DNA from: a virus | Direction: 5' to 3' (one strand) | Length of the DNA stretch: 20,012 bases | Virus record (IMG/VR): IMGVR_UViG_3300044858_002588 | Span: 1-20,012 of that record | Shown: positions 1,677 through 15,433 of the stretch, piece after piece | Layout: every line of letters begins with the position of its first letter | Numbering within the stretch: position 1 is the first letter of the stretch | Translations under genes and position numbers: made by a program | Notes under the pieces: model-generated | Seen by the model: the letters and a program-made list of their open reading frames with translations, nothing else | Databases searched by the model: none | What the model was told of the DNA's origin: nothing

Positions 1677-2518
1677 TATAAAGGTATTGTATAGTTAGAA
1701 AATACGTTAGTTCTTATTGTTGTTAAATCAGCTAATTTATCGCCATCGAATAAAACCACTTCTGAAATAAAGCCATTCCAAAATTGTCCTGCTTCGTTAG
1801 CGTTTGCACCTATTGTTACTCGGTCTATTCCTGTTGTGCCGGGATTGATTGCCGTAACATACAAGAAGTTGTTTATATTCATTCTTGAACTTGCTCCGTT
1901 GTAAGTAGCAAATTGAAATATAGGCAAGTTGGCACGATTAACAGGAGTATATGTACCTCCCGAATAATCGGCTGCTATATTACTTACTGCTCTCCATGAA
2001 TTACCTGCGCCTATATTTCCTAAAGAGCTTCTATTAGTGGTTGTGCCATCTAAACCATATTCAACGGTACTATTAAGCCCCTGCCATACTCCATAAGCAG
2101 TATAAGGTTGCGCCCTTAAAGTAAATGTAGAAGAAACTAATCGGTCATTTGTGCCATCATATCTTGCTGATAAGTTTCCGCTTGCATCTAATAACAAACT
2201 ACCACTACTTACTATTTGTGGTTGTTGTCCTGATGTTGCATTAGTAACATTAAATCCGTTACCGCTTTGGTCGTACCACGTAACTATAAATCCGTTACCT
2301 GCACCAACAAATGAAAGCAAAGCAGCAGTGTCTAAATTGTTACCACTAAATCCAATATCTTGTTGTGTATTATCGCCTGAACGCCTTACTCTTATACAAC
2401 TTCCTGTATACGCTGCTCTTAATCTTTTTAAGGATATGCCAAAAAAAGAATTAGGCACTAAATCCATTATGAACTGTGCTGATGCTGTAGAACCGTAATA
2501 TGTAAAGCGTTTAGACAT
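1676..2518 (-). CDS. Adhesin with arabinofuranosidase-like / lectin-like fold
   Basis: This 280-residue protein has an N-terminal signature seen in proteins related to the alpha-L-arabinofuranosidase B catalytic domain: LKRLRAAYTG, then CIRVRRSGDN, DIGF and WYDQSGNG within residues 30-90. The rest is beta-rich with many Gly, Asn and Thr, compatible with a concanavalin-like jelly roll (ARYDGTNDRL near 120, and EVVLFDGDKL near the C-terminus). Such domains occur in phage receptor-binding or tail proteins that touch surface polysaccharide. I cannot confirm catalytic residues, so it may bind rather than cut sugar. Its ATG overlaps the end of the upstream neck/fibre gene by 8 bases. The role as tail adhesin is inference from fold resemblance and position. 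Confidence 0.7.
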   Translation of the reverse strand: MSKRFTYYGSTASAQFIMDLVPNSFFGISLKRLRAAYTGSCIRVRRSGDNTQQDIGFSGNNLDTAALLSFVGAGNGFIVTWYDQSGNGFNVTNATSGQQPQIVSSGSLLLDASGNLSARYDGTNDRLVSSTFTLRAQPYTAYGVWQGLNSTVEYGLDGTTTNRSSLGNIGAGNSWRAVSNIAADYSGGTYTPVNRANLPIFQFATYNGASSRMNINNFLYVTAINPGTTGIDRVTIGANANEAGQFWNGFISEVVLFDGDKLADLTTIRTNVFSNYTIPL

Positions 2519-3968
2519 ACGTTCCGCTTATTTTATAAAATCCTGCACTTGCAAAAGATGTTCTAACCACTACTAAAGTATTACCAACACTCAAAGTAAA
2601 AGGCAATGTGGCAGGGCTTCCGTTTACCGTATAACTAATAGTTCCGCTTGCTCCATCTTGTGTTAATGTGGTGTACGTTCCTGCATTATCTGCATCAATA
2701 GTTATAGTTTGCATGGTATCGCTACCTGCTGCAAATATTCCTTTTAGAAATAAAGACTTGACCTGTGGCGTGCATACTATTGAACCGCCATAAGGTGTAC
2801 TTTCTGCACTACCATCGCTATCAGTCCAACTAACATTAGCAATAGTAGCGGATTTAGTTTGGTTACTTCTTACTGTTTCTGTTTGAATTAATGTTGGTAC
2901 GGTATTGAATAATTGAATAGTGCCATCGGGTGCGGTGAGATTATTACTGCTTTCGGCTAAGTATGAATTAACCCCACCTATATTGTTATTTGCACTATCT
3001 CTTAACTGTACTAAGGTATTATTTATTGTAATATTTTCGCTAGTTTCAGCTAAGATATTTTCTGTTTTTAAAGTATTGTTAGCCGTGTCTTTAATTACTG
3101 CAATACTATCCGATATCGTTTCGTTTTTACTTTGATTGCTTCTTACACTTACTGTTCTTAAATTACTGTTATCGCTTTTCTTTAAAGTAATATTTCCATC
3201 GGGTGCAATAATATCCTCAGTATCTCCGCTTGGTATATCGGTAGTTGATAAAATATTACCAGCTGTGTCTTTTAATACGGCTGTTGCATCATCGCACCCA
3301 TTACTTACTGTTATTGTTATGCTATCGGTGGCTGTTCCTGCTGAATTAGTTGCATTTCCTACAAATGTTTCTGTATTATTAACCACTACATTTACAACTC
3401 CTGTACTTCCTTGTAAAACTCCTAACCCACTTATAGTAACTTGGTTTACATTTTCTGCTATCCATGCTAATTCTATTTCAGTGCCTGATACTACATTGGT
3501 TTCGTTTGCAAATAACTTTATAGAAGGTGGTAAATCTACATTTATGTTACAGTCATTTGTGTTATAGGTTAATGCTAAACTAAAACTAAAGCCTGTTAAC
3601 GTTCCCGCCATTTGCCTTATCTCTGGTTCGGGACTTTCAAATCTAACATTTTCAAGGTTATCGTTTTGGTCTATTCTTGAAAGCAATTGCATTGCTAAAA
3701 TGCTCATTTCTTGCTTTAAATCTTCACGCTGTATCTCTGTGCTTTCTGGGCTATCTTGACCTACAAAAATTATAGGAAAAGAAATATTTATAACGTACTT
3801 ACTGTTGTTCGATTGTGGTAATGGTCTTGGCTCTAAAAGAAATATGTAAGGGCTTGGTTCGTTATAATCTAATGAAGCATCGGTTTTTCTGCCATGTAAA
3901 AACGTTCCGTTGGGGTTAACGTATTCGGCTGCATCTCTTATTATATTTACTAACTCCTTATAAGTCAT
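2511..3968 (-). CDS. Neck/tail-terminator-like module fused to Ig and fibre repeats
   Basis: I take the ATG at 3968, which gives 485 residues and an 11-base overlap with the connector gene. A farther in-frame ATG at 4013 would add 15 residues but deepen the overlap. Residues 1 to about 140 (TYKELVNIIRDAAE, then a beta-rich region ending LALTYNTNDC) look like a small neck or tail-completion protein. Residues about 148-221 resemble an Ig/PKD-like domain (SGTEIELAW, then AGTATDSITITV). Residues about 228-375 hold imperfect repeats: KDTAGN and KDTANN, APDGNI and APDGTI, VRSNQSK and VRSNQTK. The last 100 residues are another beta domain. The layout suggests a neck protein with decoration or fibre domains. 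The domain reading is inference from sequence pattern; the repeats are seen directly. Confidence 0.75.
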   Translation of the reverse strand: MTYKELVNIIRDAAEYVNPNGTFLHGRKTDASLDYNEPSPYIFLLEPRPLPQSNNSKYVINISFPIIFVGQDSPESTEIQREDLKQEMSILAMQLLSRIDQNDNLENVRFESPEPEIRQMAGTLTGFSFSLALTYNTNDCNINVDLPPSIKLFANETNVVSGTEIELAWIAENVNQVTISGLGVLQGSTGVVNVVVNNTETFVGNATNSAGTATDSITITVSNGCDDATAVLKDTAGNILSTTDIPSGDTEDIIAPDGNITLKKSDNSNLRTVSVRSNQSKNETISDSIAVIKDTANNTLKTENILAETSENITINNTLVQLRDSANNNIGGVNSYLAESSNNLTAPDGTIQLFNTVPTLIQTETVRSNQTKSATIANVSWTDSDGSAESTPYGGSIVCTPQVKSLFLKGIFAAGSDTMQTITIDADNAGTYTTLTQDGASGTISYTVNGSPATLPFTLSVGNTLVVVRTSFASAGFYKISGTYV

Positions 3969-4494
3969 GTCTGTAATCTCTTTCCTCGTAAAAATATCTA
4001 GTACGTTTAGCACCTACCCTTCCCACTATTAAGTTATTGCCGTTTTTCTTCGCACAAGGGTTCTCGTATTTTATGCCATCAAAAGTATAATTTGCTTTAT
4101 CAAGTGCTTTGTTCATTCTCAATAAATAGGCTTGTCCGTTGTTCTTGTAATGTTGCATGAACGCTGCTCTGTCTGTTGGGTCTACAGGTACGCTTGTATC
4201 TTCGTTCATTACCCTTAAGCCATATTGAGTTACGTTAATACCATGAACAGAATAAAACTGATAACAAGTAATAAAACATATCCATTGTTTAATATAATTT
4301 TCAAAGAATGCTTCTAATTCGGGAAAGTTACCGCTACCGCCAACAATGGCTTGAAGATTAGTATACATATCTTCATTTAATACAGGCTCAATTTGCAATT
4401 GTTCGGTATCGGTTATAATTGGATTAACTAACCTATCCTCTATATTATTGCTAAATTGACATTTATCAACTAAATCTTGCTTATTGACTAACAT
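3958..4494 (-). CDS. Head-tail connector (adaptor) protein
   Basis: This 178-residue protein directly follows the portal gene and overlaps it by 14 bases. It is mostly helical, with an N-terminal segment (LVNKQDLVDKC), an acidic linker, a segment LNEDMYTNLQAI, an aromatic-rich helix (YIKQWICFITCYQFYSVHG), and a basic C-terminus ending YEERDYRHDL. This fits the helical connector proteins that sit under the portal in many tailed phages, of which Bacteroidota versions are common. The place between portal and neck module agrees with that. No catalytic motif is expected. The assignment rests on size, helical pattern and neighbours, so the family is inferred. Confidence 0.75.
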   Translation of the reverse strand: MLVNKQDLVDKCQFSNNIEDRLVNPIITDTEQLQIEPVLNEDMYTNLQAIVGGSGNFPELEAFFENYIKQWICFITCYQFYSVHGINVTQYGLRVMNEDTSVPVDPTDRAAFMQHYKNNGQAYLLRMNKALDKANYTFDGIKYENPCAKKNGNNLIVGRVGAKRTRYFYEERDYRHDL

Positions 4495-5668
4495 TGTTGT
4501 TTTGATTTAATGCAGTTAATACTTTTGGTGGTAAACCAAAATAGATATTCCTTATTTCATCTTCTGTTAAGTAATTCATTAACACAGGGTCAGCTACTAA
4601 TGCAGGCTGAAACTGTGTAATCTCTAAATTCAACTCTGGAAAGATAGTTTTTAAACATTCTGTAATAAATCTTTGGTCTGAATTAACGGTATTAATTAAT
4701 TCTTTTTGAGAGTTACTTAATGCTTGTTGATTGCCTAAAACTGTTGCCTCACTAAATCCAATTAGTACAGGTGGTACTTTCATTAACCTACATACGTTTC
4801 TATCTATTAATTCTCTTTTAGCGTTTGAAGCATCTATAATACCTTTTGTATCAAATGGTTGATAGATAGGCACTTCTTCTTTATTGTTTGCAAAAAATGT
4901 AAGTAAACTAAATCGTGTACTTAATCCATCACCATCTTTTTTCGCTCCTGTAAACTCGGTTAATAAGTCGTCTATGTATTGCTTATAAGTCTTGCCTGTT
5001 TCATCTTCAATAACTTGGTTTGGATTGCCAATAAACGTCATTGAACCGCTTGTTAAAAATCCATTCCATGTAATTTCTAAATCCATTTTGCTTAGTTCGG
5101 CACTTGTAATAATGTCTTCAATGCCTGCAAAATAATCAGGTATAGGGTAGTATGGATTTTCAGCACTCTTTTTAAAAAAGTAGGCTATTTCGCCATCGGG
5201 TGCAGTTAGTATTGTGTTTTCTCTTTTGTAAATAGGATATTGTTTCCATTTAATTTCTTCAAATTTAGCGGTGAATAACGTTGGATTGTACCAAATTCCC
5301 TCACCATCTTTGTCTTTTCGGCACTTATCTAACGCTAAAACCTTTGCTTTTGGCTTGTTAAATCCATCTCTTTGTATGAATAAAGCAAAACCTTTGAAGT
5401 ATGATTGCTGAATACTAACATCATAAAGAAATTGATTGCCTGTTTGATGTTCGTTAAACTTAAATTGCTGTGTGGTTTCATCTACAAAGCCATCTGCTTC
5501 TATGTATTGAGCGTATTTATTTAATGCTAGTTTAGCTGTTCCGCTTTCATTTACCCACTTTACTAACTTATTTGGTAAATAATTGTCTTTGCCATAAAAA
5601 ATATAGGGCTTACTTCCTAAATCTTTTACGATTTCGACAAACCTATTTAGAAATTTCATTAATTTCAT
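4481..5668 (-). CDS. Phage portal protein
   Basis: This 395-residue protein forms the dodecameric ring at the head vertex through which DNA enters and leaves. Features typical of portals are an N-terminal region with KWVNESGTAKLALNKYAQYI, a beta-rich wing, a long clip/stem region near SAELSKMDLEITWNGFLTSG, and the C-terminal crown part DRNVCRLMKVPPVLIGFSEA followed by SNSQKELINTVN. The phrase RLMKVPPVLIG is close to the 'ALGVPPxLLG' region of HK97-type portals. Its ATG at 5668 overlaps the TGA of the GT25 gene (ATGA), and its end overlaps the connector gene. It is a little short for a portal but within the Bacteroidota range. The unusual point is that it follows rather than precedes the protease and capsid genes. 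Confidence 0.92.
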   Translation of the reverse strand: MKLMKFLNRFVEIVKDLGSKPYIFYGKDNYLPNKLVKWVNESGTAKLALNKYAQYIEADGFVDETTQQFKFNEHQTGNQFLYDVSIQQSYFKGFALFIQRDGFNKPKAKVLALDKCRKDKDGEGIWYNPTLFTAKFEEIKWKQYPIYKRENTILTAPDGEIAYFFKKSAENPYYPIPDYFAGIEDIITSAELSKMDLEITWNGFLTSGSMTFIGNPNQVIEDETGKTYKQYIDDLLTEFTGAKKDGDGLSTRFSLLTFFANNKEEVPIYQPFDTKGIIDASNAKRELIDRNVCRLMKVPPVLIGFSEATVLGNQQALSNSQKELINTVNSDQRFITECLKTIFPELNLEITQFQPALVADPVLMNYLTEDEIRNIYFGLPPKVLTALNQNNNVSQ

Positions 5669-6267
5669 TCCGATAAATGTTTGATTTTACGATGACTATT
5701 AGTAATATACGAATAACCATCTCTATGTAAAATTAATTTATTGGCTGCAACGTAGTTATTCATTGCAGCACTTATTTTTATCAATGCTGCATCTGCTGTG
5801 TGTTCTAATTTTTCCCACTCATTTAAGATAATATCATAAACGCTTGAATTAACTAAATAGCCAAACGTTCCCCAATGTCCGAATGAACGGTTAAGATGTT
5901 TGCTGTAAAATTTAGTAGGACGTGCGGGTGTTCCAGATAAATAAAATATATCCCATTTATCGGACAACTCATTTAAACACAGTTGTAATTTATTGTCGAA
6001 GTCTTTTACTAATTCTACATCGTCCTCTAAAATTAAAACGTATGGCAACATTAATTCTTTTGCCATCTGTAAAACTTTTATGTGAGAAAGCACACAGCCT
6101 AAACCGCCTTGCCCCATTTTGTTATAAGATAAGGCGTAGCCATCAACAGCTTCAATTCTTACTAACTTTTTTTCTGTCTTGTTTTTCTCAAATGTTTCTC
6201 TTCTTTCGGTTGCTCGGTCAAGGTTGATATAGTAGATGGTGTCAACGTTTCCGATTTTGGCTGTTCG
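5665..6267 (-). CDS. GT25-family glycosyltransferase, read by -1 frameshift
   Basis: This is the trans-frame part of a glycosyltransferase family 25 enzyme. The frame reads IYYINLDRATERRETFEK from 6237, then IEAVDGYA, GGLGCVLSH, LILEDDVEL and a C-terminal LILHRDGYSYI. These match the family order: nucleotide-sugar-binding N-terminus, AVDG, GC-x-LSH and the acidic LEDD metal/donor site. The first ATG in this frame is at 6117, which would cut off the N-terminus and leave 150 residues. Upstream, the frame is open back to a TAA at 6360-6358 with no ATG, GTG or TTG. A -1 shift from the preceding glycosyltransferase gene at the A9 tract enters this frame at 6267 and adds 200 residues. Rare-codon initiation, sequence error or a recent mutation are alternatives. 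Family is confident; the translation route is inferred. Confidence 0.8.
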   Translation of the reverse strand, partial: RTAKIGNVDTIYYINLDRATERRETFEKNKTEKKLVRIEAVDGYALSYNKMGQGGLGCVLSHIKVLQMAKELMLPYVLILEDDVELVKDFDNKLQLCLNELSDKWDIFYLSGTPARPTKFYSKHLNRSFGHWGTFGYLVNSSVYDIILNEWEKLEHTADAALIKISAAMNNYVAANKLILHRDGYSYITNSHRKIKHLSE

Positions 6268-7934
6268 TTTTTTTTTATTTCTGCTTCCGCAATTACCAAG
6301 TGCGCATACTTTGGTAGGCTTGCAATATATTCTAATTCCTGCTGTGTAGTCTTGTTGTTAATAGTGATAACTGTATTTGCACCGATTACTTTAACTCCGA
6401 AATATTGTGGATTTGGTTTTAACATTTTAATTGATTTTTGATTTACTAAATTAACTAATTTATTCGTATTTAATTTAAGATTTGATTTATTGTTATTCCA
6501 ATTGCTAATATATTCTTGTAGTTCTGCTTTGGACATCTTCTGTACTTTTTGCCATTCGTTTTGATTGGCTTTAAAATGTGGGTGAGTATTAGAACTGTCC
6601 AAACTAATATAGTGATCTAAATGAAATAGTTTGCCCTTTATTCGTTCTACTTTATAGCCTAGTGTTTCAAATCTGTATTTGCGCTCTAAATCTTCTGCAC
6701 CGTAGCTTATAAAGTTTTCGTTTTCACCGCCTGCATCTATAAAAGACTTTTTGTTATAAGCAATCGCACCGCCAACACTTAAGAAGTCTTGTTTGCGTGT
6801 ACCTACGTATTCCTTTTTAAGTTGTCCAACGTCTTTGTATTTGTAAATAGTATTGATTTCTGTACGTGGGACTCGTGCAAATCTGCCATCGTAAGGGTAA
6901 ACAAAGTCCACACCTTTTCTTAGTTTATCAATTGCTAAAAATAATTGAACTGGTGAAATAAAAACATCTGCATCGTAATTAATTACATAGGGTGTTTCTG
7001 CTAAACAAGTTAATTCGTTTAACATCTTAGTTCGGTGAAAGTATTTTAAATCAAATTCAACACGCCTTACGTTGTTTTCAAGATACTTAAAATGTGAACC
7101 CATTTCACCCACAATAATATTGGTGTCAAAATACTTTTGTAAGAACTCAATACATAAAAGCATATTTTCTTCTCGGTGTGGGTGGTCGTATTTTACAGGA
7201 ATAATAAACGTGGTATCTTTTAAATCAATCTTTTGTTTGTGGTCTTGAATAATCCATCTTTTAGGGTAAAAGTCTTCATCGTTGTTCTCTAATAATTTGC
7301 CCGCAAACAAAGCATTTGGTCTAATTACATTACAGTCGCCTAAATATGCGCCCCACCAACTAAACGTACTATTTGCCATTATAACGTCCTGACACGATGC
7401 CATTGATATAAGCTGTTCAATAGGGCTACCTTGAATGAAGGTTACGTTAGGCAAGCCCTCAAAGTGTATTTTACAGTATTCAAAATCATCTGTGTAAATA
7501 TTTACTTCACGTTCAATTCCTAATTTAATTAAAGCGTTTAAGTAGTAATTGATTTCTAAAAGCACATAGTTTGGGTTGTCAACATAGTCTCCACGCCTTA
7601 CCGATATGCCTATTTTATTATTCTTTTGAATGCCTTTTAGTGTAAATAATCTTTCATAAAAATATCCTTCACTTTGCAACCACCCTAGTATATCATAATT
7701 GCCATCATTGTATAATTCTTTAAACTGGTTAAGGTCATAATGATAATTTACTTCATTAATAACCTTGCCAGTTATGTTTATTTGTTCGGGCAAACCTTCA
7801 AAATATTCTGCATATTGCCAATTAGGTATAACGACTTTATGATTAAACCATTTTCCCAAACCCATCAATGAGGCAATCTGGAATAACTGATTACCTAAGT
7901 TACCGTAGCTGCCTAACTTACTAAATGTTATCAT
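6162..7934 (-). CDS. Bifunctional GT11 fucosyltransferase-like / GT-A glycosyltransferase
   Basis: This is a 590-residue fusion. Residues 1-230 match glycosyltransferase family 11 (alpha-1,2-fucosyltransferase type): GNLGNQLFQIA near 11, ISVRRGDY near 110 (the GDP-sugar site) and NSTFSWWGAYL near 188. Residues about 240-480 are a GT-A fold transferase of GT2/GT7 type: FIIPVKYDHPHREEN, a DAD metal-binding motif at 321-323, then SVGGAIAYNKKSF and ISYGAEDLERKYR. Residues about 504-550 form a separate small module (FGVKVIGANTVITINN, then TTQQELEYIASL). The final 34 residues in this frame are charged and low-complexity. They overlap, in another frame, the conserved start of the GT25 enzyme. Its ATG overlaps the preceding methyltransferase stop (ATGA). 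It probably builds a fucosylated glycan on a virion or host surface acceptor; the acceptor is unknown. Confidence 0.88.
   Translation of the reverse strand: MITFSKLGSYGNLGNQLFQIASLMGLGKWFNHKVVIPNWQYAEYFEGLPEQINITGKVINEVNYHYDLNQFKELYNDGNYDILGWLQSEGYFYERLFTLKGIQKNNKIGISVRRGDYVDNPNYVLLEINYYLNALIKLGIEREVNIYTDDFEYCKIHFEGLPNVTFIQGSPIEQLISMASCQDVIMANSTFSWWGAYLGDCNVIRPNALFAGKLLENNDEDFYPKRWIIQDHKQKIDLKDTTFIIPVKYDHPHREENMLLCIEFLQKYFDTNIIVGEMGSHFKYLENNVRRVEFDLKYFHRTKMLNELTCLAETPYVINYDADVFISPVQLFLAIDKLRKGVDFVYPYDGRFARVPRTEINTIYKYKDVGQLKKEYVGTRKQDFLSVGGAIAYNKKSFIDAGGENENFISYGAEDLERKYRFETLGYKVERIKGKLFHLDHYISLDSSNTHPHFKANQNEWQKVQKMSKAELQEYISNWNNNKSNLKLNTNKLVNLVNQKSIKMLKPNPQYFGVKVIGANTVITINNKTTQQELEYIASLPKYAHLVIAEAEIKKNEQPKSETLTPSTISTLTEQPKEEKHLRKTRQKKS
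6267..6276 (-). other. Candidate -1 frameshift / slippage site (A9 tract)
   Basis: On the minus strand nine A residues are followed by C. In the frame of the 590-codon gene this reads AAA AAA AAC, giving two overlapping slippery heptamers, A AAA AAA (6276-6270) and A AAA AAC (6273-6267). A -1 shift here moves ribosomes into the GT25 frame. Downstream, TCGG at 6254-6251 can pair with CCGA at 6217-6214, and GTTGA at 6246-6242 can pair with TCAAC at 6227-6223. This forms a two-part stem that starts 12 bases after the heptamer. A run of nine A is also long enough for transcriptional slippage, and is a common site of sequencing error. Confidence 0.55.
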
Positions 7935-8482
7935 TTTTGAAATATCATTAAGGTGTTTCTAAAATAACTTACATAGGGTTCGGGTTCTTTTCTTATTTGT
8001 TCAGTTAGTTCGGGTAAATAGGTTAAGCCTTTTTCTTGTAACTTGTTTATAACATATTCGTTACTCCTACAATTAACGTGTCCTAACCCTTCTTGCCCCT
8101 CAACCGCTACGGATAAGATTAAATATCCTTTAAGATTATTCACTAAGTTATCTACAAAAACGTCCTCATATTCAGCAGGTATGTGTTCCCAAACTTCAAG
8201 ACACAATATATTGCTTTGCTCATAAATAACAAGGTCTTTTGTTAAGTCATGTTCATTTATTATTATTTCTAAATTATTAGATTTATATCCATCAAATCCT
8301 AAAGCTAACATGCCTAAATCACCAAAGTATTGTAAATATTTACCATTGCCACAGCCAAAATCGTATAAGTCATAATTAATAGTAAATGGCTTTAGTAAAT
8401 TGGCCACAAACCTTGCAATATTATAACTAAAAATATGAGCGTGTTGTTCTTCTTCGCTCCAAACACCTGTTTCTGAAATCAT
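7931..8482 (-). CDS. SAM-dependent methyltransferase
   Basis: This 183-residue class I methyltransferase has the glycine-rich SAM-binding motif DFGCGNGKYLQYF near residue 42, an acidic end of strand two (GFDGYKS), and a motif-IV-like LCLEVWEHIPAEYED near residue 93 of the UbiE/Methyltransf_11 style. Further strands (LKGYLILSVAV) follow. The histidine-bearing GHVNCRSNEYV segment resembles small-molecule or sugar methyltransferases, but the substrate cannot be read. It overlaps both neighbours by an ATGA, so it is coupled to the other methyltransferase before it and the double glycosyltransferase after it. A role in modifying a sugar or a nucleotide-sugar made by the same cassette is the simplest inference. 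The length is short but the Rossmann core appears complete. Confidence 0.85.
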   Translation of the reverse strand: MISETGVWSEEEQHAHIFSYNIARFVANLLKPFTINYDLYDFGCGNGKYLQYFGDLGMLALGFDGYKSNNLEIIINEHDLTKDLVIYEQSNILCLEVWEHIPAEYEDVFVDNLVNNLKGYLILSVAVEGQEGLGHVNCRSNEYVINKLQEKGLTYLPELTEQIRKEPEPYVSYFRNTLMIFQK

Positions 8483-9090
8483 TTGAATATAAATATTTGC
8501 TTAGGGTAAAAATGTATTGACTTAATTCCAAAGTAATTTTCTACTCCACTTTCAATTTGTAGGCTGTGTAGTTGGTGTCTAAAAAATCCTATTGCCGTTT
8601 CTTTACTTTCTAAATCTGTTGTGCCTCTAAAATTCTCTTTCCAATAACTTGTGTGCGTATCTTCTACAACATACATTGCACCTTCTTTTAAATAAGGGAA
8701 AACTATCTTAAAAGTCTGTATAGTTAAGTCGTTTATGTGGCTTGCATCGTCAATTACAATATCTGGCACACCTTGCTGAAAGAGATTGTAAAAAGACATT
8801 CCATCGTCTTGGCTAAACTTATGTAATTCTACTCTATGGTCTTTTTTAATTGCGCTTTTATCGTACAAGTCAACTCCAATTATTCGGGCATTATCAAAGT
8901 ATTCAGCCCACATATTTAAACTTCCCCCACCTCTATTGTTAAAATGATATCCGCCCACTCCTATTTCTAACATCGTTATTCCTTTACCCACAAACTCACG
9001 AAAGTATTTGTCATAAATTTCTGTGTAACCATGATGTTGTAATCCTTTGTCGGTTTCGTGTTTAACTGCTATTTCACTAAGCGTTCTCAT
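8479..9090 (-). CDS. Sugar O-methyltransferase of the MycE/macrocin type
   Basis: This 203-residue class I methyltransferase begins with LSEIAVKHETDKG and HGYTEIYDKYF. These are hallmarks of the macrocin/mycinamicin-type sugar O-methyltransferases and CmcI-like relatives. Next come the SAM site TMLEIGVGGY near 39, RIIGVDLYDKS near 70, the acidic DIVIDDASHIND near 110 (metal and catalytic region in this family) and YVVEDTHTSYW near 140. The protein ends FYPKQIFIFK, with a complete core. It likely transfers a methyl group from SAM to a sugar hydroxyl, which fits the glycosyltransferases just downstream. It overlaps the preceding small gene by 14 bases and the next methyltransferase by 4. Family is well supported; the substrate is inferred. 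Confidence 0.88.
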   Translation of the reverse strand: MRTLSEIAVKHETDKGLQHHGYTEIYDKYFREFVGKGITMLEIGVGGYHFNNRGGGSLNMWAEYFDNARIIGVDLYDKSAIKKDHRVELHKFSQDDGMSFYNLFQQGVPDIVIDDASHINDLTIQTFKIVFPYLKEGAMYVVEDTHTSYWKENFRGTTDLESKETAIGFFRHQLHSLQIESGVENYFGIKSIHFYPKQIFIFK

Positions 9091-9286
9091 TGTGTCTAAT
9101 AAATTTTAGTATATCGTAATGTGCTTCCATTTCACAAGCACCGCAATTATTCTTAAAGTCTTTTGCAAAGATTTGTTTGTACCAAGATTTTAATTCGTTG
9201 GAGTGTATATCCCTAAATACTCTGTTGTTTATTTCAGCCCTTATCTTAATAGCTAGTTCTTTCTTTTGTTCTTGACTTAGGTACAT
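9077..9286 (-). CDS. Small Cys-pair protein of unknown function
   Basis: This 69-residue protein has a helical, lysine-rich N-terminus, a WYKQIFAKDFK segment, and a CGAC pair at residues 48-51 followed by a helix (EAHYDILKFI). Similar small proteins with a single CxxC before a helix occur in phage structural clusters, but I cannot name a family. One CxxC pair could bind metal as a dimer or be redox active. Its ATG at 9286 directly follows the eight-T tail of the intrinsic terminator, leaving no leader. It overlaps the sugar methyltransferase gene by 14 bases, so it may couple translation into the cargo block. Confidence 0.65.
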   Translation of the reverse strand: MYLSQEQKKELAIKIRAEINNRVFRDIHSNELKSWYKQIFAKDFKNNCGACEMEAHYDILKFIRHNENA

Positions 9287-9338: not shown

Positions 9339-9911
9339 TTATTGAGAAATACCGTTTAAATAAGTGATCGTATTTGCAAGCGTTCCGTTAACTAACATCT
9401 GCTTTGGTAAACCTAATTGCTCACCGCTTAACGTTACAACAAACGCTGTGTTGTCGTTTAACAACGCACCCAAACCGCCTGTACCTGCTGAACAGTTTAA
9501 CCCAAAGTCTAAGCCGTAAACCTCAATTCCACCATACTGACCCTGAACCGCCACAAATACGTCATCTGCATTAATCAAACTTTCAATCGCTTCTCTTTCT
9601 GTTGGGGTAGAATAATACAAAGCCAAGATAGTTGATTGGTTAACGGTATTAACGTTTTCGCCAGGCACAACTTCATTCGTTGTTGAATGCTTTGATTTCT
9701 TTCCTATAAACTTTTTAAGCGTATAAGGTATAGAAGCAACTGCTGTTAAATTTAAGCTATCTACATATCCGTTTACATCGGTAGTGTATTTAGCATCTTC
9801 ATCTAACATAGATAGTTGTCCTATCCATACTCTTTTATCTATACCGCCTACTTTGTTTAAGGCTGCACATGAAGGGTCTACCCCTCTTATTAATTCAATA
9901 CAAGTTGCCAT
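9339..9911 (-). CDS. Probable major tail tube protein
   Basis: This 190-residue protein is compact, beta-rich and without a membrane segment. It starts with a Cys-containing segment, then KRVWIGQLSMLDED, YTTDVNGYVDSL, and a central TTNEVVPGENVNTVNQ region. A later part reads STPTEREAIESLINADDVFVAVQ, GGIEVYGLDFGLNCSAGTGGL. The order of a variable loop, an 'LYYSTP' strand and a glycine-rich end resembles tail tube or other abundant virion proteins of Bacteroidota phages. It is separated from the capsid gene by a 40-base gap containing a GC hairpin and is followed by a strong terminator, as expected for a heavily expressed structural gene. A minor head or decoration protein is the main alternative. 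Confidence 0.65.
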   Translation of the reverse strand: MATCIELIRGVDPSCAALNKVGGIDKRVWIGQLSMLDEDAKYTTDVNGYVDSLNLTAVASIPYTLKKFIGKKSKHSTTNEVVPGENVNTVNQSTILALYYSTPTEREAIESLINADDVFVAVQGQYGGIEVYGLDFGLNCSAGTGGLGALLNDNTAFVVTLSGEQLGLPKQMLVNGTLANTITYLNGISQ

Positions 9912-10967: not shown

Positions 10968-12107
10968 CTATTTTTGTTTTTGTTTGTTACGAAATTCTAT
11001 TGCTTTTTCTGTTAATGTTTTTTGTGGTGCAGCACCTTTTGAAAAGTCTTGAAACTCTTCGATTTTGCCTGTCAATAATTGCGCTTTGAAGTTGTCAAAC
11101 TCTTTTTGTGCGTTTATGATATTGGTTTCGGCTTGTGCTTTTAATGTTTCGGCTTCTGTTAACTTAGCTGTCATTTCAGCTAATTGAGTTTCTAAGGCTG
11201 TTACCTTATTCATTAACTCTTCTTCTTTTTTCTTAGCTGCTTCAACATCTGCTGCTTCTTTTACCTCTGTAATTACTCCATCAGCAACAACTATTACTCT
11301 GCCATCTTCGGTAGCGTGTTCACCATTTGGTGCAGGTGTTTCGGTAGGCTCACCGTTCTCAACAGTTACTACTCGCTTGCCCATTAAATCGCCATCTTCG
11401 GTAAATACAAATACTTCTTTGTCATCGTCTAATTTGACAACCATGTTTTTAATGTTGCCTTTTAAAAGGGCTTTGATAGTTGAGAACTTTCTCTCTAACC
11501 ATGACTGTTGTTCTTGTGTAAATTCTTTCATGTTTTCAATGTTTATTTGTGCTTTAATTGGTAATTGATTTCTAAATGATGTTGAGATTGAATTTTCTAT
11601 GCTGCCTATCAATCCGATTTCAAGCATTTTATCAGCAGTAAGTTTTATTTCATTTTGCATTAAGTGCAATATTTCTTCTGCTTTTGCTGTTAATCTTTTT
11701 AAATAGAAATTGTAAATCTTTTCTTCTTCATGCTTCAAGTCCTCTGATAATTTTTTCAAATCGTCAGCTTCCATTGGAGTAGGTGATTGCGGTGTCCAAA
11801 TGGGATTGTGAATGTAGCCTGTTGAGTTCTTAGTTGACCTTACATTATCTTTAGGCAAAGCACCAATTATAATAGTTGTTATTGAAGCAACCATGCCTTC
11901 AATTTTCGCTGTTACCTTTTTAGTATTCTGTAGCGAAACTAAGTAGTCATGTATTGCCCACCCCTCATAAACATCGCCACCTTCTGAATTAATAAACAAC
12001 TCTATTTCGGTAGCATCGGGATTGCTTTCAACCATAGATTTTAAAGTAGAAAGGCTAAACCCTCCGTACTTGTCAATATATCCGTCTATGTTTACTTTTA
12101 ACTTCAC
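10968..12107 (-). CDS. ClpP-type head maturation protease with scaffold-like C-terminus
   Basis: This 379-residue protein starts at a GTG (12107); no ATG lies between it and the upstream in-frame stop, and the first beta strand (KLKVNIDGYI) needs this start. Residues 1-170 match ClpP-type phage prohead proteases: INSEGGDVYEGWAI near 40 (oxyanion loop), GMVAS with the nucleophile Ser75, and YIHNP with His100. Glu153 is a possible third residue, before the LTADKMLEIGLIGSI end helix. Residues about 193-379 are charged and include a long coiled coil (about 285-350), as in scaffold domains removed during head maturation. An internal ATG at 11531 (Met193) could yield a separate 187-residue scaffold. 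It lies directly upstream of the capsid gene. Confidence 0.85.
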   Translation of the reverse strand: MKLKVNIDGYIDKYGGFSLSTLKSMVESNPDATEIELFINSEGGDVYEGWAIHDYLVSLQNTKKVTAKIEGMVASITTIIIGALPKDNVRSTKNSTGYIHNPIWTPQSPTPMEADDLKKLSEDLKHEEEKIYNFYLKRLTAKAEEILHLMQNEIKLTADKMLEIGLIGSIENSISTSFRNQLPIKAQINIENMKEFTQEQQSWLERKFSTIKALLKGNIKNMVVKLDDDKEVFVFTEDGDLMGKRVVTVENGEPTETPAPNGEHATEDGRVIVVADGVITEVKEAADVEAAKKKEEELMNKVTALETQLAEMTAKLTEAETLKAQAETNIINAQKEFDNFKAQLLTGKIEEFQDFSKGAAPQKTLTEKAIEFRNKQKQK

Positions 12108-12156
12108 GAAACAAAAATTATATTATTTCGATGGTTATGTTTATATTTACAGCAAT

Positions 12157-12342
12157 ATGCAGCACAAACTTTATAAGAAGCGTGTAATGACCACTTTGAA
12201 GGGTGAAACGCTACGGAGGTTTTTATTCTTTCAACAAGATGAAAGCATGGGCGAAGCAGAAGCCCTAAGATATTTAGTTAATAAAGCCATGCAAAATATT
12301 AATGAGCATAGGTATAATCAGTTTTTGCAAAATAAGAAGTAA
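12157..12342 (+). CDS. Ribbon-helix-helix-like small regulator
   Basis: This plus-strand gene encodes 61 residues from the ATG at 12157. The frame is open further upstream to 12022, but that part is antisense to the protease gene and looks unlike a domain; an ATG at 12187 is also possible. From residue 9 the protein aligns without gaps to the ribbon-helix-helix pattern. A beta strand (RVMTTL) is followed by a first helix (KGETLRRFLFFQQDES), a turn, and a second helix (EAEALRYLVNKAMQ). RHH proteins are DNA-binding dimers that often repress their own operon. It is divergent from the protease gene and is followed closely by two unknown genes, so it may control this small cassette. The match is by pattern only. 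Confidence 0.6.
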   Translation: MQHKLYKKRVMTTLKGETLRRFLFFQQDESMGEAEALRYLVNKAMQNINEHRYNQFLQNKK

Positions 12343-12346
12343 CATT

Positions 12347-12616
12347 ATGTCTAATTCAGCTTTAAGTCCAATTAATAGCGAACTTTTAGAAAACATTATT
12401 AGCATTATTCTTGACTATAAGGATAAATCTTTTAATGATATTTCTATTGAAATATGTAAAGGGAAAGTAAAATATAGGTGTACTGCAACTTTTAAAGATG
12501 GTGTTTTATATTTTGCATTTACTTCTACAAAAGACAATAAAGTGTTAAAATACGCTTCTACTGAAAAGTCGGCTATAAATAATTATTTATTGAATAAAAT
12601 GTTTAATAGTAACTAA
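12347..12616 (+). CDS. Small hypothetical protein in plus-strand cassette
   Basis: This 89-residue protein begins at the ATG at 12347, four bases after the stop of the RHH-like gene; an in-frame ATG at 12302 would overlap that gene. A helical N-terminus (NSELLENIISIILDYK) is followed by beta strands (ISIEICKGKVKYRCTATF, VLYFAFTST) and a final helix (EKSAINNYLLNKMF). The alpha-beta-alpha layout is a plausible small fold, but I recognise no family. It has no signal peptide or membrane segment. Tight spacing with both neighbours indicates one transcript. A toxin-antitoxin, anti-defence or moron role is possible but not shown. Confidence 0.55.
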   Translation: MSNSALSPINSELLENIISIILDYKDKSFNDISIEICKGKVKYRCTATFKDGVLYFAFTSTKDNKVLKYASTEKSAINNYLLNKMFNSN

Positions 12617-12617
12617 T

Positions 12618-12938
12618 ATGAACGTACAAGCAGAAATAATTAAAATTGAATTAATTGATACTACACACACAACTAAAAAATACCTAGTAGATGTTTTTCT
12701 TTATTTTGATTTAAAGGGCGAAACTGTTACGCCTAATACTTCAACTGAATTTACATTTAACCTAAATCAAATGCCACGTGTATATGATTTAGCTAAAATA
12801 GAAAAATTTAATTTTGAACAATTATTATTAATTGCTTCTGAAAATAAAGAAACAAATCTTGATTTTATAAATCCATCTTTATTTGATTACCAAATTAAAG
12901 AGGGTAAAATAATTGAAAAAGGAAATCCTTTTGGCTAA
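12618..12938 (+). CDS. Hypothetical protein at the end of the plus-strand cassette
   Basis: This 106-residue protein starts one base after the preceding stop. It has beta strands (VQAEIIKIELID, KYLVDVFLYFDL, STEFTFNLNQM), a helix (NFEQLLLIASEN) and a C-terminal segment NPSLFDYQIKEGKIIEKGNPFG. I do not recognise a family. Its TAA at 12936-12938 interlocks with the TAG of the tape measure gene on the other strand (12937-12935), so the two converging genes share the bases CTAA. This shows that the cassette is fitted exactly against the tape measure gene. The intact, well-packed frame argues for a real gene. Confidence 0.55.
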   Translation: MNVQAEIIKIELIDTTHTTKKYLVDVFLYFDLKGETVTPNTSTEFTFNLNQMPRVYDLAKIEKFNFEQLLLIASENKETNLDFINPSLFDYQIKEGKIIEKGNPFG

Positions 12939-15433
12939 ATCTCACTAATTCTTATAGACCTATTTCTTTTTGCGGTCTTTTTTTCGTATTCAACTATTGA
13001 TAGTTCGGGAGCGGGTAAATTGCTTAGTGAATTATTTAAAGCACGTTGTAATCTTATGTTTTCGTTTACTACTGCAACACTTCCGCTCATGCCTACATTA
13101 GTATTGATTGCGCCACCATTAGCTAAGTGCGTGCCTGTTGTAGTCCACGCATTACCGCCAAATGCTTTGTTAATGTTTGAGAATTTATTTATTGCTTGGT
13201 AAGCATTTTTCTTCATTACAAATAAGCCTTCCCCGCCTTCTACATTAGCTACTAATCTGTTACCTACAAATACATTCTCACCGCCTTGACTATGTGATTT
13301 ACCATCAATATCAATTGCACCACCCTCTTCTAACTTAGGCACTGTTGCCTGTGCTACTGTTTGCGCTGCAATGGTTGCAATAGATATACCTGCTTGCACA
13401 TTGTTTCTCACTCTTAACGCTGCTGCTTGACCTTGTGCAACAAAGAACGCAGGGTTAGGAAATCCTAAAGGATTGAATGGCGCAACACTTGTAGCATTAG
13501 CTGTTATGATTGCATTAGCACGTTGCGTTTGTATTACCACATCTGCTATGGCTGCTGCCTTTTCTGCTACCAATAGAATAGTCTGTAACTCACTATTATT
13601 GCCTGCTATCTGTTGGGCAATTGCTATAACTCCCTGAGCAGATGCAAGTCTTGCGTCTTGTATGGCTTGTTCTGCTTGACGTACTTGTTCTAGTAATTCT
13701 AACCTTTGTTCGGTGTTTTCTCTTTCTGCATTTAATTCGTCTTGTAGTTTATTAAATTGAGTATCTAATTCTTTTTGATTAAAATCTTCAATTACTTTAA
13801 GCCTTTCTTCTCTAAACTTTTCAGTTATTTCTAAATCAGAAAGACCTGCTTGTTCTAAAAATTCACGCCTGCCCTCTTGTTGTAAATCTAAATTCTCTAA
13901 CTCCTTTTCTACACCTGTTAAAAATTCTTCAATATATTTTTTCTGATTTTCAGTAGCTACTTTAAAATAATCTTTTATGATTTCTTTTTTGTCATTAAGT
14001 ATTTTGTTGTTTTCTTTTTCTTCTTTATTCAGCAACTTAATCAATTGCAATTGTTTGTCTTTTCCAGCATCTCGAACTTTAATTAATTGCGCTTCTAAGT
14101 CTTGTAGTTCTTTATTGCCCTCTCTGTCTGTTATGTTTTGCGATTGCGTAAGTTTTAGTTCTTGTATCTTTTTACTTATAATATCCTCTTCTAACTTTTG
14201 AAGTTTAGCAGTATTTGCCAAAATTTCATCGGTTGCTTTTTTCCTTTCTTGTGCTGTTGATTTAACAGACTTGGCAATAATTAATAACTCTTTTTCTCTG
14301 CTTTCAAATTCTGCCCTGCGTTTATTTATTGCACCTTCTAAATCTTCTATTTCTCTTTGAATGTTTACTATTTCTTGACCTTTTTTAGCTGCATCGGTTA
14401 AGAATTTCCCTGCTGCTTTTGCACTGTTTTCTAATTTATCTGTTAAATTTTCTACGCCTGTTGCTAATTGGGCTACTCCGTTTGTAATCTTTTTAGTGTC
14501 ACCTTCTAATATTCCATCAAGGATAACTCCAAATGATTTTAAACGATTTAATAAGTTGCCTTGCAAGAAATCTACTAAATCTTTGATAGCTTTTTTCGGG
14601 TTACTAAATATATCAATTAATTGCACCCCTAACTTTTGTGCTTCACCAAATAATGACTTTACAACTCCTGATATATTTGCAAACGCATCTTCTAATAAGT
14701 CAACTCCTTTTTCAGTTGTGGCTAATGCTGCTATAAGAGAACCCAACAATACTACAAACGCACCTATACCTGTTGAAATTAAAGCCAATTTAAGCACGTT
14801 CATTGCTGCCGATAACCCGCCTGTAGATATTATGGACAACTTAGTTGCTCCATCGGCTGCTTTTTGCCCTGTTATGTAGGCTGCTAATTGTGTTTTAGCA
14901 TCTTTTAAAGCATCATTATAACCATTAAATGTAGTTTCTAAAGTGCCTAATGATACACCGAATATGTTTATTTCACTTACTGCATTCTTTAATGCTCCTT
15001 GATAGTTACCAACATTCCTAACATTATTGCCTATTGCGCTTTCTTGCTCTTTTAATTGGTCTGATAGTTTACGTATTTGCTCGGTTTGTTCGGTAGTAGG
15101 CTTTTTTAAGTTAATATATTCTGCCGTTAACTGCTTTAGTAAATCTCTGTTTTGCTGAATAGAGTTATTGTAAAAATTACTTGTATCGGTTGCGCTTTTT
15201 TGTACTGCTGAATAACCTTCAACTGCTCTACTTAATACCCTTTGTTCATTGGCTAAGTTTTTAATTACTACTTGGTTTGCTTCATAGCTTTTGGCTGCTT
15301 CTTGGTTGCCTTTTTTTACTTCCTCTGTTAGCTGTTTCTGCTGTTCTTTATACGCATTTATATCCGCACGTATTTGTACTAGCTTATCTACTGCTCCTTT
15401 AATGTCTATATCAAATATTACTACCTCTGCCAT
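12935..15433 (-). CDS. Tail tape measure protein
   Basis: This 832-residue protein sets tail length and helps DNA eject. The N-terminal 200 residues are coiled coil (KQQKQLTEEVKKGNQEAAK and similar). A hydrophobic glycine/alanine-rich segment follows at about 205-240 (STGIGAFVVLLGSLIAALAT), typical of tape measure proteins. A very long charged coiled coil then runs to about 620, followed by an alanine-rich helix (AEKAAAIADVVIQTQRANAI) and a Gly-rich C-terminal part (EEGGAIDIDGKSHSQGGENVF, then VEGGEGLFVMKKNA) that recurs in Bacteroidota phage tape measures. It starts directly after the stop of the hub-like gene. Its 3' end is interlocked with the plus-strand cassette. No peptidase domain is visible. 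Confidence 0.9.
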   Translation of the reverse strand: MAEVVIFDIDIKGAVDKLVQIRADINAYKEQQKQLTEEVKKGNQEAAKSYEANQVVIKNLANEQRVLSRAVEGYSAVQKSATDTSNFYNNSIQQNRDLLKQLTAEYINLKKPTTEQTEQIRKLSDQLKEQESAIGNNVRNVGNYQGALKNAVSEINIFGVSLGTLETTFNGYNDALKDAKTQLAAYITGQKAADGATKLSIISTGGLSAAMNVLKLALISTGIGAFVVLLGSLIAALATTEKGVDLLEDAFANISGVVKSLFGEAQKLGVQLIDIFSNPKKAIKDLVDFLQGNLLNRLKSFGVILDGILEGDTKKITNGVAQLATGVENLTDKLENSAKAAGKFLTDAAKKGQEIVNIQREIEDLEGAINKRRAEFESREKELLIIAKSVKSTAQERKKATDEILANTAKLQKLEEDIISKKIQELKLTQSQNITDREGNKELQDLEAQLIKVRDAGKDKQLQLIKLLNKEEKENNKILNDKKEIIKDYFKVATENQKKYIEEFLTGVEKELENLDLQQEGRREFLEQAGLSDLEITEKFREERLKVIEDFNQKELDTQFNKLQDELNAERENTEQRLELLEQVRQAEQAIQDARLASAQGVIAIAQQIAGNNSELQTILLVAEKAAAIADVVIQTQRANAIITANATSVAPFNPLGFPNPAFFVAQGQAAALRVRNNVQAGISIATIAAQTVAQATVPKLEEGGAIDIDGKSHSQGGENVFVGNRLVANVEGGEGLFVMKKNAYQAINKFSNINKAFGGNAWTTTGTHLANGGAINTNVGMSGSVAVVNENIRLQRALNNSLSNLPAPELSIVEYEKKTAKRNRSIRISEI
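12956..12984 (+). terminator. Candidate terminator of the plus-strand cassette
   Basis: AGACC (12956-12960) pairs with GGTCT (12974-12978) over a thirteen-base loop, and seven T residues (12978-12984) follow. It lies 17 bases after the stop of the last plus-strand gene, inside the 3' end of the tape measure coding region. The stem is only five base pairs, so its strength is uncertain. Confidence 0.5.

Follow-up and report, generated by a model that had tools for sequence, protein, structure and literature searches.

A conserved −1 frameshift probably appends a GT25 glycosyltransferase domain to the product of the gene preceding the portal gene in a group of phages

The window analyzed here, which is the entire 20,012-base viral record IMGVR_UViG_3300044858_002588, contains a GT25 glycosyltransferase frame whose conserved N-terminus is not preceded by a usual start codon, and this raises the question of how the frame is translated. 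The genes at issue all lie on the minus strand. The GT25 frame is open from 6357 to 5665; its conserved start, IYYINLDRATERR, lies at 6237, and the first ATG lies at 6117, 120 bases further downstream. The preliminary description had placed this N-terminus upstream of any ATG, GTG, or TTG in a −1 frame open back to the stop at 6360-6358; these coordinates were confirmed, and CTG is likewise absent ahead of the motif. In addition, the match to PF01755 (6.7e-18) starts at residue 40, ahead of the first in-frame ATG. This match exceeds the curated cut-off, as do those of five relatives (7.3e-11 to 2.5e-15). An acidic EDD motif (E71, D72, and D73) is invariant across the GT25 alignment of the window's clade and is also present in the GT25 translations of distant relatives; we read it here as a putative DxD-type metal site. 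Directly 3' of GT25 is the portal gene (4481..5668; phrog_11226, 3.5e-18), which occupies the same place in every relative whose record extends that far.

The start of GT25 overlaps the end of another gene. The upstream ORF (6162..7934, 590 aa), whose reading frame is referred to as frame 0, encodes a fucosyltransferase-like GT11 domain (residues 1-229, 7248..7934; PF01531, 3.5e-23; phrog_2644, 1.2e-38), a GT-A domain (residues 235-483, 6486..7232; PF02709, 1.8e-6; phrog_15655, 3.5e-47), and a small C-terminal module followed by a lysine-rich tail (6165..6425), the module starting at an ATG (6425-6423). Within this last part is a tract of nine A residues (A9, 6268..6276); no other A run on the window's coding strand reaches this length. 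In frame 0 the tract reads ATA AAA AAA AAC, so that it holds the slippery heptamers A_AAA_AAA and A_AAA_AAC, and a −1 shift at either would give a product of the same length, 756 aa. Counted from the slip, the −1 frame comprises about 200 GT25 codons (5665..6276), and the stretch between the slip and the end of the frame-0 ORF (6162..6267) would be dual-coded as the frame-0 tail and the GT25 N-terminus. We consider it about 90% probable that a conserved programmed −1 ribosomal frameshift appends GT25 to the product of the gene just before the portal gene. The preliminary description had proposed this junction at the A9 tract, and the comparison of relatives described below strongly supports it.

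Homopolymers are error-prone in sequencing, and from one record alone it could be argued that the true run length differs and the frames are joined, or that GT25 is the dead remnant of a decayed gene. The comparison table comprises 22 loci. Both the A9 tract and the split of the frames are found again in another IMG/VR record (L003), with a GT25 that is 97% identical. A capsid-based scan yielded L016, L017, and L018 (capsids 86, 65, and 66% identical, respectively), all of which retain A9 together with a startless GT25 frame, even though the glycosyltransferase encoded upstream is of another kind, GT2, in L017 and L018. Searching with the GT25 alignment brought in L021-L024; the portal alignment, used likewise, recovered L044, L046, and a more distantly related group, L050-L062, in one member of which (L060) other genes occupy this place. 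Other metagenomes have thus yielded records with this A run and these frames at GT25 identities as low as about 46%, and further relatives combine the split frames with a slippery site that contains no homopolymer. A homopolymer error or a real frameshift mutation, which the preliminary description had named as the competing account, is excluded by these independent records together with the homopolymer-free relatives, and we regard error or decay as scarcely credible.

Across the table, GT25 is in the −1 frame at 22/22 loci, each with an in-frame X_XXY_YYZ heptamer 2-12 codons ahead of the GT25 motif. The heptamer is A_AAA_AAN with exactly A9 at 13 loci and C_CCA_AAN at nine. In the distant group there is no glycosyltransferase upstream; a single small ORF of about 160-190 residues, designated gene X, precedes GT25, which is again startless and in the −1 frame. 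Two members of this group (L051 and L052) have A9, and the remaining nine read xxC CCA AAN (C_CCA_AAN), in most cases five codons ahead of the GT25 motif. On the GT25 tree, L051 and L052 are nested inside the C_CCA_AAN clade, beside L050; the slip type has changed at least twice, and the coupling to GT25 was kept. Strong heptamers are found at 0.2% of codons in these genomes, and 11/11 lineages have one in the short open stretch (naive probability ~5e-18, with independence assumed).

Could GT25 instead be made as a protein of its own, by initiation at an unusual start codon or by reinitiation within the overlap? The window does have ATT, ATA, and ATC codons in the −1 frame ahead of the motif. 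However, no ATG, GTG, or TTG precedes the motif at 20/22 loci, and the only such codon at the other two (L021 and L022, identical to each other over 8,044 bases) is a GTG located downstream of the slip. At ten loci (L016, L017, L018, L023, L024, and L051-L055), neither NTG nor ATN occurs between the −1 stop and the motif, so ordinary initiation, non-standard start codons included, is impossible there. Reinitiation would need to run backwards, since the frame-0 stop lies well beyond the GT25 motif. Separate translation is thus very improbable, and the pattern of selection, which sets in at the slip and not at a start codon, argues against it as well.

This pattern was obtained by sorting substitutions by frame-0 codon position in eight pairs of loci without shared sequence. 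Upstream of the slip, the substitutions fall mostly at position 3 (53/35/141 at positions 1/2/3). In the overlap past the slip, position 2, which is the wobble position of GT25, leads (13/40/23), and it leads likewise past the frame-0 stop (52/263/92). The position profiles of the upstream part and the overlap differ (p=3e-10), and the change is located in the 30-base bin at the slip. The difference holds for each slip type (A9, p=2e-8; C_CCA_AAN, p=0.005). Inside the overlap alone, position 2 versus 3 is not significant (0.07 for A9 and 0.50 for C_CCA_AAN), a result to be expected under constraint on both frames. In the eight pairs, the substitution rate is also at its minimum in the overlap, 0.080 versus 0.137 upstream and 0.107 downstream, and the GT25 frame is under purifying selection over its whole length, which speaks against a dead remnant. 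Because the wobble position switches frame exactly at the slip, the GT25 frame appears to be translated from the slip onward. Taken together, the comparison shows, at the level of sequence, the frame, the site, the lack of starts, and selection that acts on the GT25 frame beginning at the slip. The check on relatives proposed in the preliminary description has therefore come out in its favor, with either the A run or a replacement heptamer kept along with the split frames and the missing start.

The step at the slip could also be transcriptional. Nine A residues are a run length that can cause transcriptional slippage, whereby RNA polymerase would add one A on A9 and the mixed mRNAs would yield the short and long proteins. 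Runs as long as nine are rare in these genomes, and the phase of the run relative to frame 0 differs in L017 and L018, as expected if run length alone matters; in the A9 phages such slippage would leave an identical trace. Against it, nine loci keep the coupling with C_CCA_AAN and no run, and all 13 A9 loci have exactly nine A residues together with an in-frame A_AAA_AAA. The absence of a homopolymer from C_CCA_AAN points to ribosomal slippage. According to PMC5009743, C_CCA_AAG shifts very readily in E. coli, and a haloarchaeal virus uses A_AAA_AAC as its shift site. We infer the ribosomal nature of the step in the A9 phages, as well as its efficiency; transcriptional slippage is an unlikely substitute for it there, and it could add to the ribosomal slippage. 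A second A9 run was seen immediately ahead of the capsid start codon in L018 (L018:3706).

A stem, a pseudoknot, or a Shine-Dalgarno-like stimulator is common at −1 frameshift sites and is not universal. The two-part stem that had been proposed downstream of the A9 tract did not hold up: in the window it cannot be distinguished from shuffled sequence (z -0.26, -0.84, and -0.89), and simple folds of the 75 downstream bases gave no conserved stem over 20 loci (z -1.9 to +1.6). A Shine-Dalgarno-like match was found at only 1/20 loci.

How does the three-domain product of the window relate to the simpler arrangement of the distant group? In the window, a 69-aa ORF (9077..9286) corresponds by homology to the N-terminal domain of gene X (hhalign probability 95.7, E 9.4e-9). 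A weaker match (probability 74) links the C-terminal part of gene X to the module at the end of the GT11/GT-A gene, and both start at the same methionine. The two halves are now separated by methyltransferase and glycosyltransferase genes. These include two methyltransferase-like cassette genes (7931..9090; phrog_21658, 5.4e-23; PF13489, 3.9e-4, under its cut-off), and the last cassette gene is fused in frame to the gene X module. The simplest reading of these matches is that a cassette was inserted into gene X, since gene X is a single ORF in both outgroups described below; a later fusion is a less likely alternative. Different partners occur upstream (GT11/GT-A, GT2, or, in L023, a 360-residue ORF without a Pfam match), and the module, the slip site, and GT25 stay constant. 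The preliminary term "tri-functional" enzyme fits the lineage of the window, of which the predicted 756-aa GT11-GT-A-GT25 product is the particular version; as a general unit it does not stand, the widespread one being the small portal-adjacent gene X protein plus GT25. Of the loci inspected, some of them near-duplicates and the outgroups included, 18/18 have the ATG at which the module starts, and internal initiation there could produce the module alone and module-GT25.

Two further observations concern the cassette region. In L023, a different cassette of two GT2-like genes and a methyltransferase (L023:2179-4030) lies where the window has its GT11 cassette. In L022 (4435-4437), and likewise in L021, an in-frame TAG breaks the GT11/GT-A gene, with a same-frame ATG three bases on; the module, A9, and GT25 are intact despite the TAG.

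Gene X is flanked by the portal gene on one side and, on the other, by a gene for a conserved protein of about 190 residues. Bacteroides phage BS-TP3 has counterparts of all three: gp4 is annotated as a head-tail adaptor, gp6 is portal-like, and gp5, which has no GT25, aligns with the L050 gene X at 26% identity. A second outgroup, L074, also has the gene and lacks GT25. In the structure model of the L050 gene X (pLDDT 71), helices form the N-terminal part, a small alpha-beta module comes next, and a very-low-confidence tail begins at residue 119; the slip position falls within this tail, and by this model the frame-0 tail is probably disordered. A fold search with gene X gave no PDB match, and its best viral match was an uncharacterized phage protein (59% identical); its placement in the virion therefore draws on gene order only. 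For its upstream neighbor in the window (9339-9911), the model was too poor to interpret, with a pLDDT of 43. Capsid and portal scans of bacterial and archaeal genomes found no relative. Among named phages there was no DNA match to the window and none for gene X, and only remote matches for the portal and GT25. The portal similarity is to phages of Tenacibaculum and Bacteroides (22-24% identity), which hints at a host among the Bacteroidota.

The gene order also bears on whether gene X could be a tail assembly chaperone. Such a gene (gpG/gpGT) lies between the tail tube and tape measure genes. Like its counterpart in the lambda-type system, the gene X protein is small, starts with a helical part, comes after a possible tail-tube protein in gene order, and is extended by a −1 shift; however, it is followed by the portal and not by a tape measure, its extension is GT25, and no homology was found. 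With these neighbors, we rejected the chaperone identity. A long, coiled, tape-measure-like ORF, without profile confirmation, lies elsewhere (12935-15433). Between it and a protease are three small plus-strand ORFs (12022-12938; 27.7% GC), which run against all their neighbors. Another ORF of the window (2511-4013) contains repeated modules resembling TDSITITVSNGC and DDATAVLKDTAGN, and its C-terminal part is different in L003 and L022, which suggests domain shuffling.

Among tailed phages, tail assembly chaperones and appended Ig-like domains account for most of the programmed frameshifts known. The Ig-like domains appended by frameshift to phage structural proteins (reviewed in PMC5009743) offer a parallel, in that a minority product is extended C-terminally by a domain from another frame; here, in contrast, a glycosyltransferase is added, the frameshift is conserved over deep divergence, and gene X is only a candidate virion protein. 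Mycobacteriophage capsids and tail tubes are glycosylated by phage glycosyltransferases, according to work cited in PMC12619734. The glycosyltransferases studied here are likewise phage-encoded, and they are clustered with structural genes; for the mycobacteriophage enzymes, no description as frameshift fusions to another phage protein was found. The GT25 proteins of cyanophages S-SCSM2R (gp248) and SynMITS9220M01 (gp212) are homologous by sequence to the GT25 of the window; unlike it, they are ordinary genes with their own ATG. A full-text literature search of open-licence papers found no report of a frameshift-made glycosyltransferase, and the work on PRFect, a frameshift-site predictor, does not mention a glycosyltransferase. 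Thus, the mechanism is of a known kind, and the appended activity and the gene appear to be new.

The programmed ribosomal frameshift would operate as follows. Ribosomes on the gene before the portal would meet A_AAA_AAN in the window or C_CCA_AAN in relatives; most would stay in frame 0 and add a short lysine-rich tail, and a fraction would slip back one base and add the GT25 domain of about 200 residues. The phage of the window would make a 590-aa GT11/GT-A/module protein and a 756-aa protein with GT25 added, and cassette-free relatives would make a gene X protein of 160-190 aa and gene X-GT25. The gene X protein, whose gene has a putative tail-tube or adaptor gene on one side and the portal gene on the other, would carry the enzyme to the assembling virion, where it would act on a structural protein. 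A more specific proposal is tentative and rather doubtful: gene X may be a minor neck or tail protein, whose few GT25-bearing copies glycosylate adjacent structural proteins as the virion assembles or else act from the particle on the surface of the host, and the clade of the window may have captured further glycosyltransferases into the same polypeptide as a virion-tied assembly-line enzyme.

Collectively, these results describe a catalytic domain that is probably appended by frameshift, with the coupling kept over deep divergence. That the slippery sequence has been exchanged at least twice, with the coupling retained, makes the comparative case for selection on the frameshift itself unusually clear. 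A standard gene caller would start GT25 at the internal ATG and lose its conserved N-terminus. The finding also makes a question directly testable, namely why the sugar-transferring enzyme of a phage should be attached to a portal-adjacent protein, and in just a limited share of its copies.
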